Of a stretch of DNA of 38,274 nucleotides, positions 33,052 through 37,752 are shown one piece after another (within the stretch, counting starts at the first letter, position 1; each line of letters starts with the position of its first letter). The DNA lies in contig JANXAZ010000033.1 in assembly GCA_025062095.1 (NCBI GenBank), forward strand, positions 1 through 38,274, given 5' to 3'. This stretch comes from Geminicoccaceae bacterium. Lineage in GTDB: Bacteria; Pseudomonadota; Alphaproteobacteria; Geminicoccales; Geminicoccaceae. The notes below the pieces were generated by a model. The model had not been told where the DNA came from and did no database searches. It saw only the letters and a program-made list of their open reading frames with translations. Both the position numbers and the translations under genes were made by a program.

Positions 33052-34227
33052 ATGGCCCTCAAAGATTATCTGTTCACGAGCGAGTCCGTCTCCGAAGGTC
33101 ACCCGGACAAGATCTGCGACCGAATCTCGGACGAGGTCCTCGATCTGTTCCTCGCCGAATATCCGGAGGCGCGGGTCGCGTGCGAGACGCTCGCCACTAC
33201 CAATCGGGTGGTGATCGCGGGCGAGTGCCGGCCGGGTCCGAACAGCCGCATCACGCCCGATCTCATCCGCCATACGGCGCGCATGGCGATCCGGGCGATC
33301 GGCTACGAACAGGAGGGCTTCCACTGGCAGCGCGCCCAGATCGACGTGCTCTTGCACGAGCAGTCGCCGGACATCGCCATGGGGGTCGACGCCGCCGCCG
33401 GCAAGGAGGAGGGAGCCGGCGACCAGGGCATGATGTTCGGTTACGCCTGCGACGAGACGCCCGAGCTCATGCCCGCGCCCATCTATTACGCGCACGAGAT
33501 CCTGCGCCGGATCTCGGCCGCCCGGCACGCGGGCGAACTCCCCGATCTCGGGCCCGACGCCAAGAGCCAGGTGACGCTGCGCTACGTCAACGGGCGGCCC
33601 GTGGGAGCGGCCGCCATCGTCGTCTCGAGCCAGCACCGCGAAGGTCTCACCCCGGCGGACGTCAAAGAGCTCGTCCGCCCCTACGTGGTGGCGGCCCTCC
33701 CCGAGGGCTGGATGTGCCCGGAATCCTCTTTCTACGTGAACCCGACCGGGAAGTTCGTGATCGGCGGGCCGGACGGCGACTGCGGCCTCACCGGACGCAA
33801 GATCATGGTCGACACTTATGGTGGCGCCGCACCGCACGGAGGGGGCGCCTTCTCGGGCAAGGACCCGACCAAGGTCGACCGCTCCGCGGCCTATGCCATG
33901 CGCTATCTGGCCAAGAACGTCGTGGCCGCGGGGCTGGCCAGGAAGTGCCTCATCCAGGTCGCCTATGCGATCGGGGTGAGCAAGCCGCTCTCGCTCTACG
34001 TCGACACCCTGGGCACGGGCGAGGTCGACGAGGAGCGCCTGGCGCGCGTCCTGCGCGAGATCATGGATCTCTCCCCGCGCGGGATCCGTCGCCATCTCGG
34101 GCTTTCGCGGCCGATTTACGCGCGCACCGCCGCCTACGGTCATTTCGGCCGCCCGCCCGAGAGCGACGGCGGCTTCTCTTGGGAGCGTCGTGACCTCGTC
34201 GACGAGCTCAGACGCGCCTTCTCCTGA
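33052..34227 (+). CDS. metK: S-adenosylmethionine synthase
   Basis: 391 aa enzyme that makes SAM from methionine and ATP. Signatures are [20 protein letters not shown] (about 11-30), [20 protein letters not shown] (about 121-140), [20 protein letters not shown] and the [20 protein letters not shown]-loop region (about 263-281). Length and C-terminus fit. ATG 33052 is the family start. SAM made here is the cofactor for the adjacent trmB product and for MiaB. The 3' end overlaps trmB by 38 bases. Confidence 0.97.
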
Positions 34228-34945
34228 GGGACCGCCCGCTGAGGGACGGCGCGCGGAGGCGCCGCGTCGGCTCGTCTACGGTCGGCGCATCGGGCATCGG
34301 CTCCGCCCCGGCCGCAAGCGCCTTCTCGAGGAGCTCCTGCCGGAGCTCGCGATCCGCCTGCCGGAAAGCGGCGCGCTCGATCCGCGCGCCCTGTTCGCTC
34401 GTCCCGTGGCGGGCGTGCGGCTCGAAATCGGCTTCGGCGCCGGAGAACATCTCGAAGCCGAGGCGGCCGCCCATCCCGAGCTCGGCTTCATCGGCGTGGA
34501 GCCTTATCTCGGCGGCGTGGCGCGGCTTCTGTCCGGGATCGCCGAGCGCGGTCTCGACAACGTCCGCATCCTGGTCGACGACGCGCGGCTGTTGCTGCCG
34601 CGGTTGCCGGATGCGAGCATCCGACGGATCGACGTGCTGTTCCCCGATCCCTGGCCCAAGAAGCGGCATCACAAGCGCCGGCTCGTCAACCGCGAGACGG
34701 TGGCCGAGTTCGCGCGCGTTCTCGAGCCCGGGGGCGAGTTGCGCCTGGCCACCGACGACGCCTCTTACGCGCGCTGGATGCTCGCGGCTCTTCTGGCCGA
34801 GCCGCGCCTCGCGTGGTGTGCCGAGCGGGCGGCGGACTGGCGGACGCCCTGGCCGGACCGGCCGCGCACGCGCTACGAAGAGAAAGCGCTTCGCGCCGGC
34901 CGCAGGCCGGTCTACTTGCGTTTTTCGCGGCGGGCGGAAGGGTGA
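34190..34945 (+). CDS. trmB: tRNA (guanine-N7-)-methyltransferase TrmB
   Basis: 251 aa SAM-dependent enzyme that methylates G46 of tRNA. The SAM-binding motif is [14 protein letters not shown] (about 75-88). The TrmB signature is [21 protein letters not shown] (about 149-169), and the C-terminal [19 protein letters not shown] segment is also typical. The N-terminal 25 residues are a Ser/Pro-rich non-conserved tail from the GTG start at 34190, which lies inside metK; a later start is possible but no better codon is visible before [13 protein letters not shown]. Confidence 0.94.
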
Positions 34946-34952
34946 TCGGGGC

Positions 34953-34981
34953 TTGCCTGAGGCGAAACCGAAGACCATATT
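34953..34981 (+). promoter_or_regulatory. Putative sigma-70 promoter of the rimP-nusA-infB operon
   Basis: TTGCCT (34953-34958), a 17-base spacer and CATATT (34976-34981) resemble the housekeeping promoter of Alphaproteobacteria. It lies just after the trmB stop, in a locally AT-richer patch, and would start transcription near 34988, giving a leader of about 60 bases before rimP. Confidence 0.5.
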
Positions 34982-35012
34982 GCGGTCAGCTCCGACTCGT
35001 ACCGTAAGGATG

Positions 35013-35036
35013 GAGAGTGGGTCGGCACCCGCTCTC
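35013..35036 (+). promoter_or_regulatory. Stem-loop in the rimP leader (possible attenuator)
   Basis: A 10-bp stem (GAGAGTGGGT / ACCCGCTCTC, one G-T pair) with a CGGC loop, followed by TTT. It sits between the putative promoter and the rimP start and looks like a small intrinsic terminator. Because the operon encodes NusA, a transcription termination factor, feedback through this hairpin is plausible; this is inference. Confidence 0.55.
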
Positions 35037-35050
35037 TTTGGCGTGCGCAT

Positions 35051-35548
35051 TTGAAAGGGATCTCGTCCTCGACCGACTTCGCCGCACTCGTCCGGCCGAC
35101 GCTCGCCGCGATGGGTTTCGAGCTCGTGGAAGTCCGCCTCGTCGGCGGCGGCCGCCCGACCCTGCAGGTGGTGGCCGAGCCGGCCGATCACAGCCGGGCG
35201 ATGAGCGTGGACGACTGCGCGGCGATCAGCCACGCGCTCTCGGCCGTGCTCGACGTCGCCGATCCGGTTTCCGGGCCCTACCGGCTCGAAGTGAGCTCGC
35301 CGGGGATCGAGCGGCCGCTCGTCACGGCGGAGCACTTCCGTCGGTTCGCGGGCCAGCGGGCGAGGGTCGAGACGCAGGAGCCGATCGCCGGACGCCGCCG
35401 TTTCACCGGCGTGATCCGGGCGTGCGACGACACGATCCTCACGCTCGAGACCGAAGAGGGCACGGTGTCCGTGCCGCTCGCCTCCCTGCGCCGGGCGCGG
35501 CTCGCGGCGGAGGCGGCTGCGGTGCGCGGTCGGCGATCCCGCGGGTGA
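35051..35548 (+). CDS. rimP: Ribosome maturation factor RimP
   Basis: 165 aa 30S assembly factor. Family marks are LVRPTLAAMGFELVEVRLVGGGRPTLQVV, MSVDDCAAISHALSAVLDV and YRLEVSSPGIERPLVTAEHFRRFAGQ. The C-terminal SH3-like domain follows (TILTLETEEGTVSVPLASLRRARL). The start is TTG 35051; no upstream in-frame alternative exists in the leader, and the only in-frame ATG further in (35111) would cut the conserved N-terminus. No clear Shine-Dalgarno lies at the right distance, so initiation may be weak or structured. Confidence 0.93.
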   Translation: MKGISSSTDFAALVRPTLAAMGFELVEVRLVGGGRPTLQVVAEPADHSRAMSVDDCAAISHALSAVLDVADPVSGPYRLEVSSPGIERPLVTAEHFRRFAGQRARVETQEPIAGRRRFTGVIRACDDTILTLETEEGTVSVPLASLRRARLAAEAAAVRGRRSRG

Positions 35549-35563: not shown

Positions 35564-37102
35564 ATGGAGAGCACCGGGTTCGGCCGCGGCGAGATCCTGC
35601 GGGTGGCCGAGGCGGTCGCCCAGGAGAAGGGCATCAGCACGAGCGAGGTGATCGCCGCCATGGAGCAGGCGATCCAGACCGCCGCGCGCCGCAAATACGG
35701 CATGGAGCACGAGATCGTCGCCGAGATCGATCGGCGCACGGGCGAAATCCGACTCTATCGCGAGCTCGAGGTGGTCGAGCAGGTCGAAAACCCCTCCAAG
35801 CAGATCACCCTGGACGAAGCGCGCGAGCGCAATCCGGCGGCGCAGATCGGCGATCACATCCTCGAGCCCCTGCCGGCGATCGATCTCGGGCGGATCGCGG
35901 CGCAGAGCGCCAAGCAGGTGATCGTGCAGAAAGTGCGCGACGCCGAGCGCGAGCGGCAGTACAACGAATACAAGGACCGCATCGGCGAGATCGTGGTCGG
36001 GGAGGTCAAGCGCGTGGATCGTTCCGGCATCCTCGTCGACCTCGGCCGTGCCGAGGCGTTCCTGCGCCACGACGAGATGATCCCGCGCGAGATTTTCCAC
36101 GTCAAAGATCGGATCCGCGCCTATATCTACGACGTCAGGCACGAGAGCCGGGGTCCGCAGATCTTCCTTTCCAGGACTCATCCCGGCTTCATGATCAAGT
36201 TGTTCGAGCAGGAAGTTCCCGAAATCTACGACGGCATCATCGAGATCAAGGCCTGCGCCCGGGATCCCGGCTCGCGCGCCAAGATCGCGGTCTACTCGCG
36301 CGACAGCAGCATCGATCCGGTGGGGGCGTGCGTGGGCATGCGCGGCTCGCGCGTGCAAGCGGTGGTCCAGGAGCTCGGCGGGGAGAAGGTCGACATCATC
36401 CCGTGGTCGCCCGACCCGGCGACCTTCGTGTGCAACGCGCTCGCCCCGGCGGAAGTCTCCAAGGTGGTGCTCGATCCGGAGGCCAAGCGGATCGAGGTCA
36501 TCGTCCCCGACCACATGCAGCACATCGCCATCGGCCGCCGGGGGCAGAACGTGCGCCTGGCCAGCCAGCTCACCGGCTGGGACATCGACATCGTCTCGGA
36601 GAGCGAAGATTCCGAGCGGCGCCAGCGCGAGTTCAAAGAGCTCACCGAGATGTTCGTGAACGCCTTGAACGTCGACGAGGTGATCGCGCAACTCTTGGTG
36701 AGCGAAGGCATCGGCTCGGTCGAGGAGCTCGCCCTCGTGCCCGAAGAGGAGCTCGCGCGGATCGAGGGATTCGACGAAGAGATCGCGCAGGCCCTCAAGG
36801 AACGGGCGCAGAGCTGGCTCGAGGAGCGGCGCCAGGCGCTCGAGGCCGAGGCGCGCGAACTCGGCGTCAAAGACGATCTCTTGAACTTCGGGCGGCTCGA
36901 CCTCGAGACGATCATCAAGCTCGCCCGCCAGGGCATCAAATCGCTCGAAGATCTGGCCGATCTGGCCGGTGACGAGCTCGCCGAGATGTTGCCGGGTTCG
37001 GGTCTTTCCGAGGCCGAGGCGGGAGCCATCGTCATGGACGCGCGGGTCCGTCTCGGCTGGGTGGCTCCGACCGAAGCCGCGGAGGCGACGGCGTCGGCGT
37101 GA
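35564..37102 (+). CDS. nusA: Transcription termination/antitermination protein NusA
   Basis: 512 aa RNA polymerase-associated factor. Order: N-terminal RNAP-binding domain (about 1-130, [20 protein letters not shown]), S1 domain (about 138-205, [22 protein letters not shown]), two KH domains (about 205-345, with [21 protein letters not shown] and [21 protein letters not shown]), then two acidic AR-type helix-hairpin-helix repeats (about 365-500), as in most Proteobacteria. GAAGGAGAGC gives a strong ribosome binding site for ATG 35564. It overlaps the next gene (GTGA). Confidence 0.97.
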
Positions 37103-37752
37103 GCGCGAACACCCTCCTGTTCGAACCCGAACCGGCCGCGCGCGGCCGTCGCCGCTCGATCGCGACGCGCGGCGAGGGCGCGCGGGCGGGGATGATCCGC
37201 TTCGTCCTCGGCCCCGAGGGAACCGTCGTTCCCGACCTCGCCGAGCGGCTGGGCGGGCGCGGCCTGTGGCTGGAAGCCGATCGCGCGCGGATCCTCGAGG
37301 CGATCCGCAAGAACCTTTTCGCCAAAGCGGTGCGCGCCCCGGTACGGCCGGCGCCCGATCTGCTCGACTGCATCGAGCGGGGGCTCCGGCGGCGCTGTCT
37401 CGACCTCCTGGGCCTCGCCCGGCGCGCGGGCGCGGTGGTGGCCGGCCACGATCAGGTCGAAGCGGCGCTGCGCAAGGGGGGCGTCGCGGTGCTCCTGCTC
37501 GCGCGCGATGCCGCGAGCGAGGCCGAGAAGCTCGTGCGCCGCGCGGGTGCGACGCCGGCGTTCCGTATCTTCGAGCGCGACGAGCTCGGCGCCGCGCTCG
37601 GGCGCGAACATCTCGTCTACGTCGCGGTGCTGCGGGGCGCCCTCGCCGATCGGCTGCTGCGGGAGCTGTCGCGGCTTTCGGGCGTGCTCGCAGGCGCGCG
37701 CGCGGACGACCGGGGCGGAAACGGAACTCGAGTGGGCGGTGACGATCGATGA
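37099..37752 (+). CDS. YlxR (DUF448) - L7Ae-like RNA-binding fusion protein
   Basis: 217 aa. The N-terminal part (about 17-90) is a YlxR/DUF448 domain: [30 protein letters not shown], then [14 protein letters not shown]. The C-terminal part (about 98-190) is an L7Ae/S12e-like RNA-binding fold: [30 protein letters not shown]. This fusion between nusA and infB is common in Alphaproteobacteria. The usual R-x-C-I-V-T start of YlxR reads RRSIATRG here, so the conserved Cys is missing. GTG 37099 overlaps the nusA stop; the 3' end overlaps infB (ATGA). Confidence 0.9.

Follow-up and report, generated by a model that had tools for sequence, protein, structure and literature searches.

The rimP operon and its leader

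The window (the whole stretch of DNA analyzed, 38,274 nt) belongs to a 3.3-Mb draft genome of 143 contigs from a bacterium of the family Geminicoccaceae (Alphaproteobacteria), and the region of interest lies toward the end of the window, with all features on the forward strand. The trmB gene for tRNA (guanosine(46)-N7)-methyltransferase (34190–34945; TIGR00091, 127.5 bits, cut-off 112.65) is followed by rimP (35051–35548, with a TTG start), nusA (35564–37102; TIGR01953, 446.6 bits, cut-off 253.4), a gene for a YlxR/L7Ae-like RNA-binding protein (37099–37752; NF006622, 191.1 bits, cut-off 184) and an open frame that begins at 37749, extends past the window end (38274) and is presumably infB (IF-2), an assignment that follows the gene order. 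The rimP frame matches 27 NCBIfam models, and RimP is the name of nearly all among the 25 listed; the best of them, NF000932, scores 160.8 bits, which is below its strict cut-off of 185, and PF02576 is above its cut-off. Between nusA and infB, a single gene fits the PRK09190 'RNA-binding protein' model and contains both YlxR-like (RnpM) and YlxQ/L7Ae-like parts. To our knowledge, the rimP-nusA-infB arrangement is found in almost all bacteria. The leader described here occupies the 5′ UTR directly upstream of rimP in this operon (with infB placed by gene order). Searches of the window found no tRNA and no Rfam family at gathering score, and the leader itself gave only two sub-threshold Rfam matches, both to families that have no link to a rimP leader.

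The stop of trmB (34945) ends 7 nt upstream of a −35 box, TTGCCT (34953–34958), which is separated by a 17-nt spacer from a −10 box, CATATT (34976–34981). The two boxes agree with TTGACA/TATAAT at 8 of 12 positions, which is why a simple promoter scan listed no promoters, and on its own such a pair of boxes could be a chance match. Its conservation argues for a promoter: CTTG-N19..21-CATA occurs in 27 of 30 leaders of the family, with 0.0 expected in shuffled sequences, and in six species of the genus the −35 region (34952–34957) is identical in 6 of 6 columns and the −10 box in 5 of 6, as opposed to 4 of 17 columns of the spacer. The well-spaced promoter noted in the preliminary description is therefore present and is conserved in the family. 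Among 77 leaders from the rest of the class, CTTG-N-CATA was seen once and a relaxed form in 40. The CTTG and the C that opens the −10 box could also suit a heat-shock sigma factor. From the spacing of promoter and hairpin, the leader RNA up to a possible termination zone is predicted to span ∼55 nt (34988–35042).

The hairpin is composed of a 5′ arm, GGAGAGTGGGT (35012–35022), which contains a conserved GUGGG, a CGGC loop (35023–35026) and a 3′ arm, ACCCGCTCTCT (35027–35037). The stem has 11 bp and includes two G·U pairs, one of which is the outermost pair. The preliminary description had the hairpin, the loop and the TTT right, but counted 10 bp, as it omitted this outermost G·U. The remnant of a U-tract, UUU (35037–35039), overlaps the stem by its first base and continues for two bases beyond it, where GGCG follows. 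Folding of 39 nt around the hairpin gave −18.3 kcal/mol (z −2.69; 5 of 200 shuffled sequences were as good). The whole 101-nt leader has no unusual stability relative to shuffled sequences (z 0.07), and a terminator scan of the window did not list the hairpin at 35012–35037.

All six species examined from this genus share the TTG start codon (35051 in the window), and pairing with the anti-Shine-Dalgarno sequence upstream of it (35030–35050) is almost nil (−1.5 kcal/mol), which bears out the TTG start with no evident Shine-Dalgarno sequence that had been described earlier. The annotated rimP of Escherichia coli K-12 also starts with TTG (L265, position 3507), and rimP may often have a weak start codon. 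In several alphaproteobacteria rimP seems, from its sequence, to start at AUU or AUC. By script, none of the codons ATG, GTG and TTG lies downstream of the in-frame stop and ahead of the RimP domain in L012, L016 and L133; the best candidate start in each is an AUU or AUC preceded by a brief run rich in purines. In the Geminicoccus group, an AUC lies 7 nt after AGGAG in L024 and L200 (L024 and L199 are the same record) and the corresponding motif in L023 is GGGAG; a TTG is also open there.

Conservation of the hairpin in the family and the class

Alignment of the six congeners shows identity in 10 of 11 columns of each stem arm, 2 of 4 columns of the loop, 12 of 26 columns of the pre-stem region and 9 of 13 columns of the stretch between hairpin and TTG. 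This is a clean footprint, in which the promoter and the stem arms are kept while the spacer and the loop drift. The family sample comprised 30 leaders, from 30 of 31 genomes and 16 genera, and every one of them has a recognizable hairpin where it is expected. A strict script that demanded a GGG/CCC core and at least 7 bp found it in 24 of 30, as compared with 4.0 in shuffled sequences; the remaining family leaders were placed by eye and by alignment, and one of these, L020, has GGCC instead of the GGG core.

In the 28 distinct family hairpins, 91.9% of the cells are paired and 32 cells are changed on both sides, and none of 500 shuffles was as high on either measure. Every control in which the family stem was slid out of register was far lower than the true register. 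As the shuffles ignore relatedness, these slid controls and the footprint carry more weight than the shuffles. Covariation of the stem, which the preliminary description had named as a check, was thus found. The rows of alignment A1 were not chosen for perfect pairing outside the core. Alignment A2 (73 rows, with L079, L165, L173, L103 and one duplicate excluded) proves little about covariation, because its rows were chosen for pairing.

For the rest of the class, 193 genomes were searched, of which 175 had rimP, and 130 leaders among the matches listed were examined (30 loci from the search and 100 fetched). Same-genus repeats were partly skipped and partly kept in this set, and the leader of L121 is only 165 nt long owing to a contig end. 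The strict hairpin followed by at least 4 T in 8 nt was found in 78 of the 130 leaders, whereas ten shuffles gave 1.5 on average and never more than 4; the other 52 failed the strict script. One of the 78, L079, was judged to be a false match and was removed for base counts, which left 77 hairpins with 72 distinct arms. We also used two models, one (R1) trained on the family alone, with this leader included, and the other (R2) on leaders from elsewhere in the class. At E ≤ 0.01, R1 detected 61 of the 130 class leaders on the rimP strand (52/100 and 9/30), and 10 further rows on the opposite strand, most of them at the same palindromes. Of 20 loci examined beyond the class, 11 carry a GGG/CCC hairpin and then U's ahead of rimP, and in 8 the base preceding GGG is U (a count made with a stem minimum of 5 bp and without a shuffle control). 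At the same place, E. coli K-12 has CUGGGC-UUUA-GGCCC-UUUUUUU, with a second hairpin upstream (R2, 12.6 bits, E 0.39).

The GUGGG arm and the loss of the U-tract

Genome-wide, the models differ in how well they single out the rimP leader. In its own genome, the leader scores 44.9 bits with R1, whose training set includes it, and the next place scores 18.7 bits. The best genome-wide R1 match is the rimP leader in 29 of 31 family genomes, 30 of whose leaders are in the training set; in G016 and G027 R1 scores higher elsewhere than at rimP, and in the rest of the class many R1 matches fall away from rimP. R2 gives this leader 19.1 bits (E 0.0064 in 43 kb and 0.49 genome-wide), and two other places in the same genome outscore it (28.1 and 24.1 bits). 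R2 also picks terminators of the GGCGGGC type, which have C, not U, ahead of GGG.

The base before GGG differs in most cases between the rimP hairpins and these other places. We read 20 non-rimP model matches in family genomes, chosen mostly as top R2 matches rather than at random. They resemble ordinary terminators, with GC-rich palindromes and some U's after them, and several of them lie just after a reading frame. Among the 18 that have a GGG core, 17 have C before it and one has U (by eye), and a reading of the rimP hairpin as a generic terminator was rejected on this sample. Of the 72 distinct arms of the class rimP leaders, for which T was not required at this position, 63 have U, 8 have C, one has G and none has A; the family alignment has U there in all 28 distinct rows aligned on the hairpin. 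Opposite this position, the class hairpins have A 35 times, G 36 times and C once. A mere weak pair would allow A or G in the 5′ arm as well, so the U itself appears to be preferred, and to judge from these sequences the constraint looks like what a factor that reads the nascent strand would give.

The U-tract has fared differently from the stem. Over the 12 nt examined, this leader has a T run of 3 at most, and its best 8 nt hold 5 T. Runs of 5 or 6 are found in 11 of the 30 family leaders (8 genera), and the longest run is 3 or less in the other 19 (8 other genera, including this one), some of which have almost none. In the class, a run of at least 5 is present in 66 of 77 hairpins and a run of 3 or less in 7, but these 77 had been chosen for at least 4 T in 8 nt; because the script finds 80 leaders when no T is demanded, as compared with 78, loss of the U's looks uncommon elsewhere in the class. 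On a quick tree of RimP and NusA, with 8 of 33 inner branches weakly supported and the outgroup left out, the U-tract must have changed state at least twice in the family. Among the six outgroup rows, L083 has a run of 3 and L067 has no hairpin by script. The 'terminator-like' label of the preliminary description is thus weaker here than that description implied, as the genus has only UUU ahead of GGC, and in several related genera hardly any U-tract is left.

The stem has nevertheless been maintained where the U-tract decayed. In the 17 distinct decayed hairpins, 92.0% of the cells are paired and 19 cells are changed on both sides, and no shuffle out of 500 reached these values; by number of pair types, these rows do not exceed the shuffles (186/500). 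With U-runs no longer than 3, the 19 decayed family leaders may have lost intrinsic termination, and retention of the hairpin and its covariation in these lineages points either to a role other than unaided intrinsic termination or to termination that is assisted by a factor.

Relation to known rimP leaders and possible function

A leader of this general kind is already known. Naville and Gautheret (2010, PMC2965389) described a rimP-leader in the majority of species as a terminator that precedes rimP-nusA-infB, lies 4–130 nt from the gene start and has an unusual stem, with a conserved GGGc(...)gCCC; rimP came first among the genes that they predicted to be under attenuation control, no antiterminator was visible by their account and NusA was the favored effector. 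The element described here shares the site upstream of rimP-nusA-infB, the G-rich 5′ and C-rich 3′ arms at the loop and the lack of an antiterminator, and most class leaders that carry the hairpin also have the U-stretch. It differs in that the loop-proximal core is GGGT-CGGC-ACCC, in which GGG/CCC is present and the c-g pair is replaced by a closing U-A pair (C-G, U-G or U-A across the family), in the extension of the core to GUGGG and in the U-stretch of only UUU. To judge from the sequence, the general rimP-leader attenuator is represented by this form in alphaproteobacteria. The preliminary description had left open a relation to the rimP leader of gammaproteobacteria: the relation is to the general GGGc...gCCC type and not to the gammaproteobacterial family RF01770, whose covariance model has no match in this genome and none in the leader at E ≤ 5. 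RF01770 precedes the same gene. A GGGC...GCCC-U hairpin of this kind is also present in E. coli, but within a tandem pair of terminator-like hairpins, unlike the single hairpin here. No alphaproteobacterial form, GUGGG arm or U-tract decay was found in the titles and abstract openings of the open-licence papers listed, and the 2010 list may include alphaproteobacteria.

Experimentally studied systems offer a model for how such a leader could work. In Bacillus subtilis, NusA is reported to autoregulate through NusA-stimulated termination in the 5′ leader (Mondal 2016, as told in PMC12288461 and PMC6200986), and NusA-dependent terminators of this species are described as often having distal U-tract interruptions (PMC8060035). 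Our leader resembles that case, by description, in operon, in position and in a suboptimal U-tract of the kind expected for a NusA-dependent terminator, with UUUGGCG fitting a distal interruption; the B. subtilis case rests on experiments, whereas ours is known from sequence. For the rimP-operon leader of Streptococcus agalactiae, RNA-seq is reported to place termination 31 nt after the start, and NusA feedback was proposed (PMC4448216). The likeness, again by description, lies in a short leader before rimP-nusA-infB; the S. agalactiae terminator is a predicted intrinsic one at which termination was seen by RNA-seq, and the counterpart here is a hairpin read from the DNA. In E. coli, terminators upstream of rimP and control by NusA of its own operon have been reported (PMC6511841), and expression of a rimP fusion is stated to be lower in a Rho mutant (PMC7815308). 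In these accounts, an effect of NusA is reported from experiments on the leader in B. subtilis and on the operon in E. coli, and is a proposal elsewhere.

The element is probably a NusA-responsive attenuator, in which the promoter and the GUGGG hairpin would set read-through into rimP-nusA-infB. Transcription would start ∼25 nt upstream of the hairpin with the GUGGG core, and RNA polymerase would pause or terminate at the hairpin, most likely with the aid of NusA that acts there as the hairpin emerges. A surplus of NusA would then lower read-through into rimP-nusA-(ylxR/L7Ae)-infB. Because UUUGGC is so reduced a tract, unaided termination is expected to be inefficient, and the step is thus expected to depend on a factor. 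Pairing between the pre-stem region and the 5′ arm is no stronger than in shuffled sequences (mean duplex z −0.27 for 30 family leaders and −0.17 for 77 class leaders), and antiterminator-like pairings of ∼7 bp can be drawn by hand in single members of the genus. The lack of any sign of an antiterminator leaves mainly a protein-driven mechanism as a candidate.

Other explanations account for parts of these observations. The hairpin might now act mainly on translation, or as an RNA-binding site (e.g. for RimP, NusA or a ribosomal protein), close to the weak TTG, with the ancestral termination lost in this clade. Such a role would suit a hairpin that is kept and covaries without a U-run (19 double changes, 0 of 500 shuffles), a 5′-arm U that is kept class-wide and a stem base located 13 nt from the TTG, near enough to meet an initiating ribosome. 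However, closeness to the start is not conserved, because in four leaders with intact U-runs (L019, L021, L026 and L029) the core lies 125–159 nt from the first matched RimP codon, and we regard this explanation as unlikely. It is rather improbable that the hairpin is a constitutive and unregulated weak terminator or insulator that ends read-through from metK-trmB and sets the stoichiometry of the operon. Although the hairpin comes just after trmB and U's follow it in most class leaders that have it, the promoter sits downstream of trmB and upstream of the hairpin, which means that it is the rimP transcript on which the hairpin acts; the hairpin is also kept in five leaders (L010, L013, L014, L022 and L027) that have no TrmB match (tblastn, E ≤ 1e-3) in at least 870 nt upstream, and its arm sequence is conserved, unlike that of the other terminator-like places read in family genomes.

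An open frame of 14 codons, from ATG to TGA (35013–35054), spans the hairpin, ends in TTTGA and overlaps the TTG of rimP (TTGA), as would suit attenuation by a ribosome translating a leader peptide. This frame is common only to the window and L002, is missing from the other four congeners and has comparable, but not identical, frames near rimP in few others of the 30 leaders (L020, L023, L024 and L029), which makes ribosome-mediated control exceedingly improbable. We also consider it very unlikely that the terminated leader is a trans-acting small RNA or the hairpin a mere stabilizer of the 5′ end of the mRNA. The leader is short and has its own promoter, and in enterobacteria a rimP leader is listed among ProQ-associated small RNAs (PMC5391140), but outside the promoter and the stem this leader drifts (as in the pre-stem region), and the Rfam search of the window speaks against a known small-RNA family.

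The decayed lineages also allow a further reading, which we put forward tentatively. In half of the Geminicoccaceae genera examined, the hairpin may have outlived its U-tract, and GUGGG might be a base-specific RNA site that is read by a factor such as NusA, rather than an intrinsic terminator; it might serve as a translational operator or as a place where pausing or termination depends on the factor. If this is true, these leaders would stand, as a natural intermediate, midway from an intrinsic attenuator to a control element read by a protein. The constraint on GUGGG, together with a natural series of leaders with full to almost absent U-tracts, provides a direct way to ask whether the hairpin, the U-tract or the bases of the 5′ arm are recognized.
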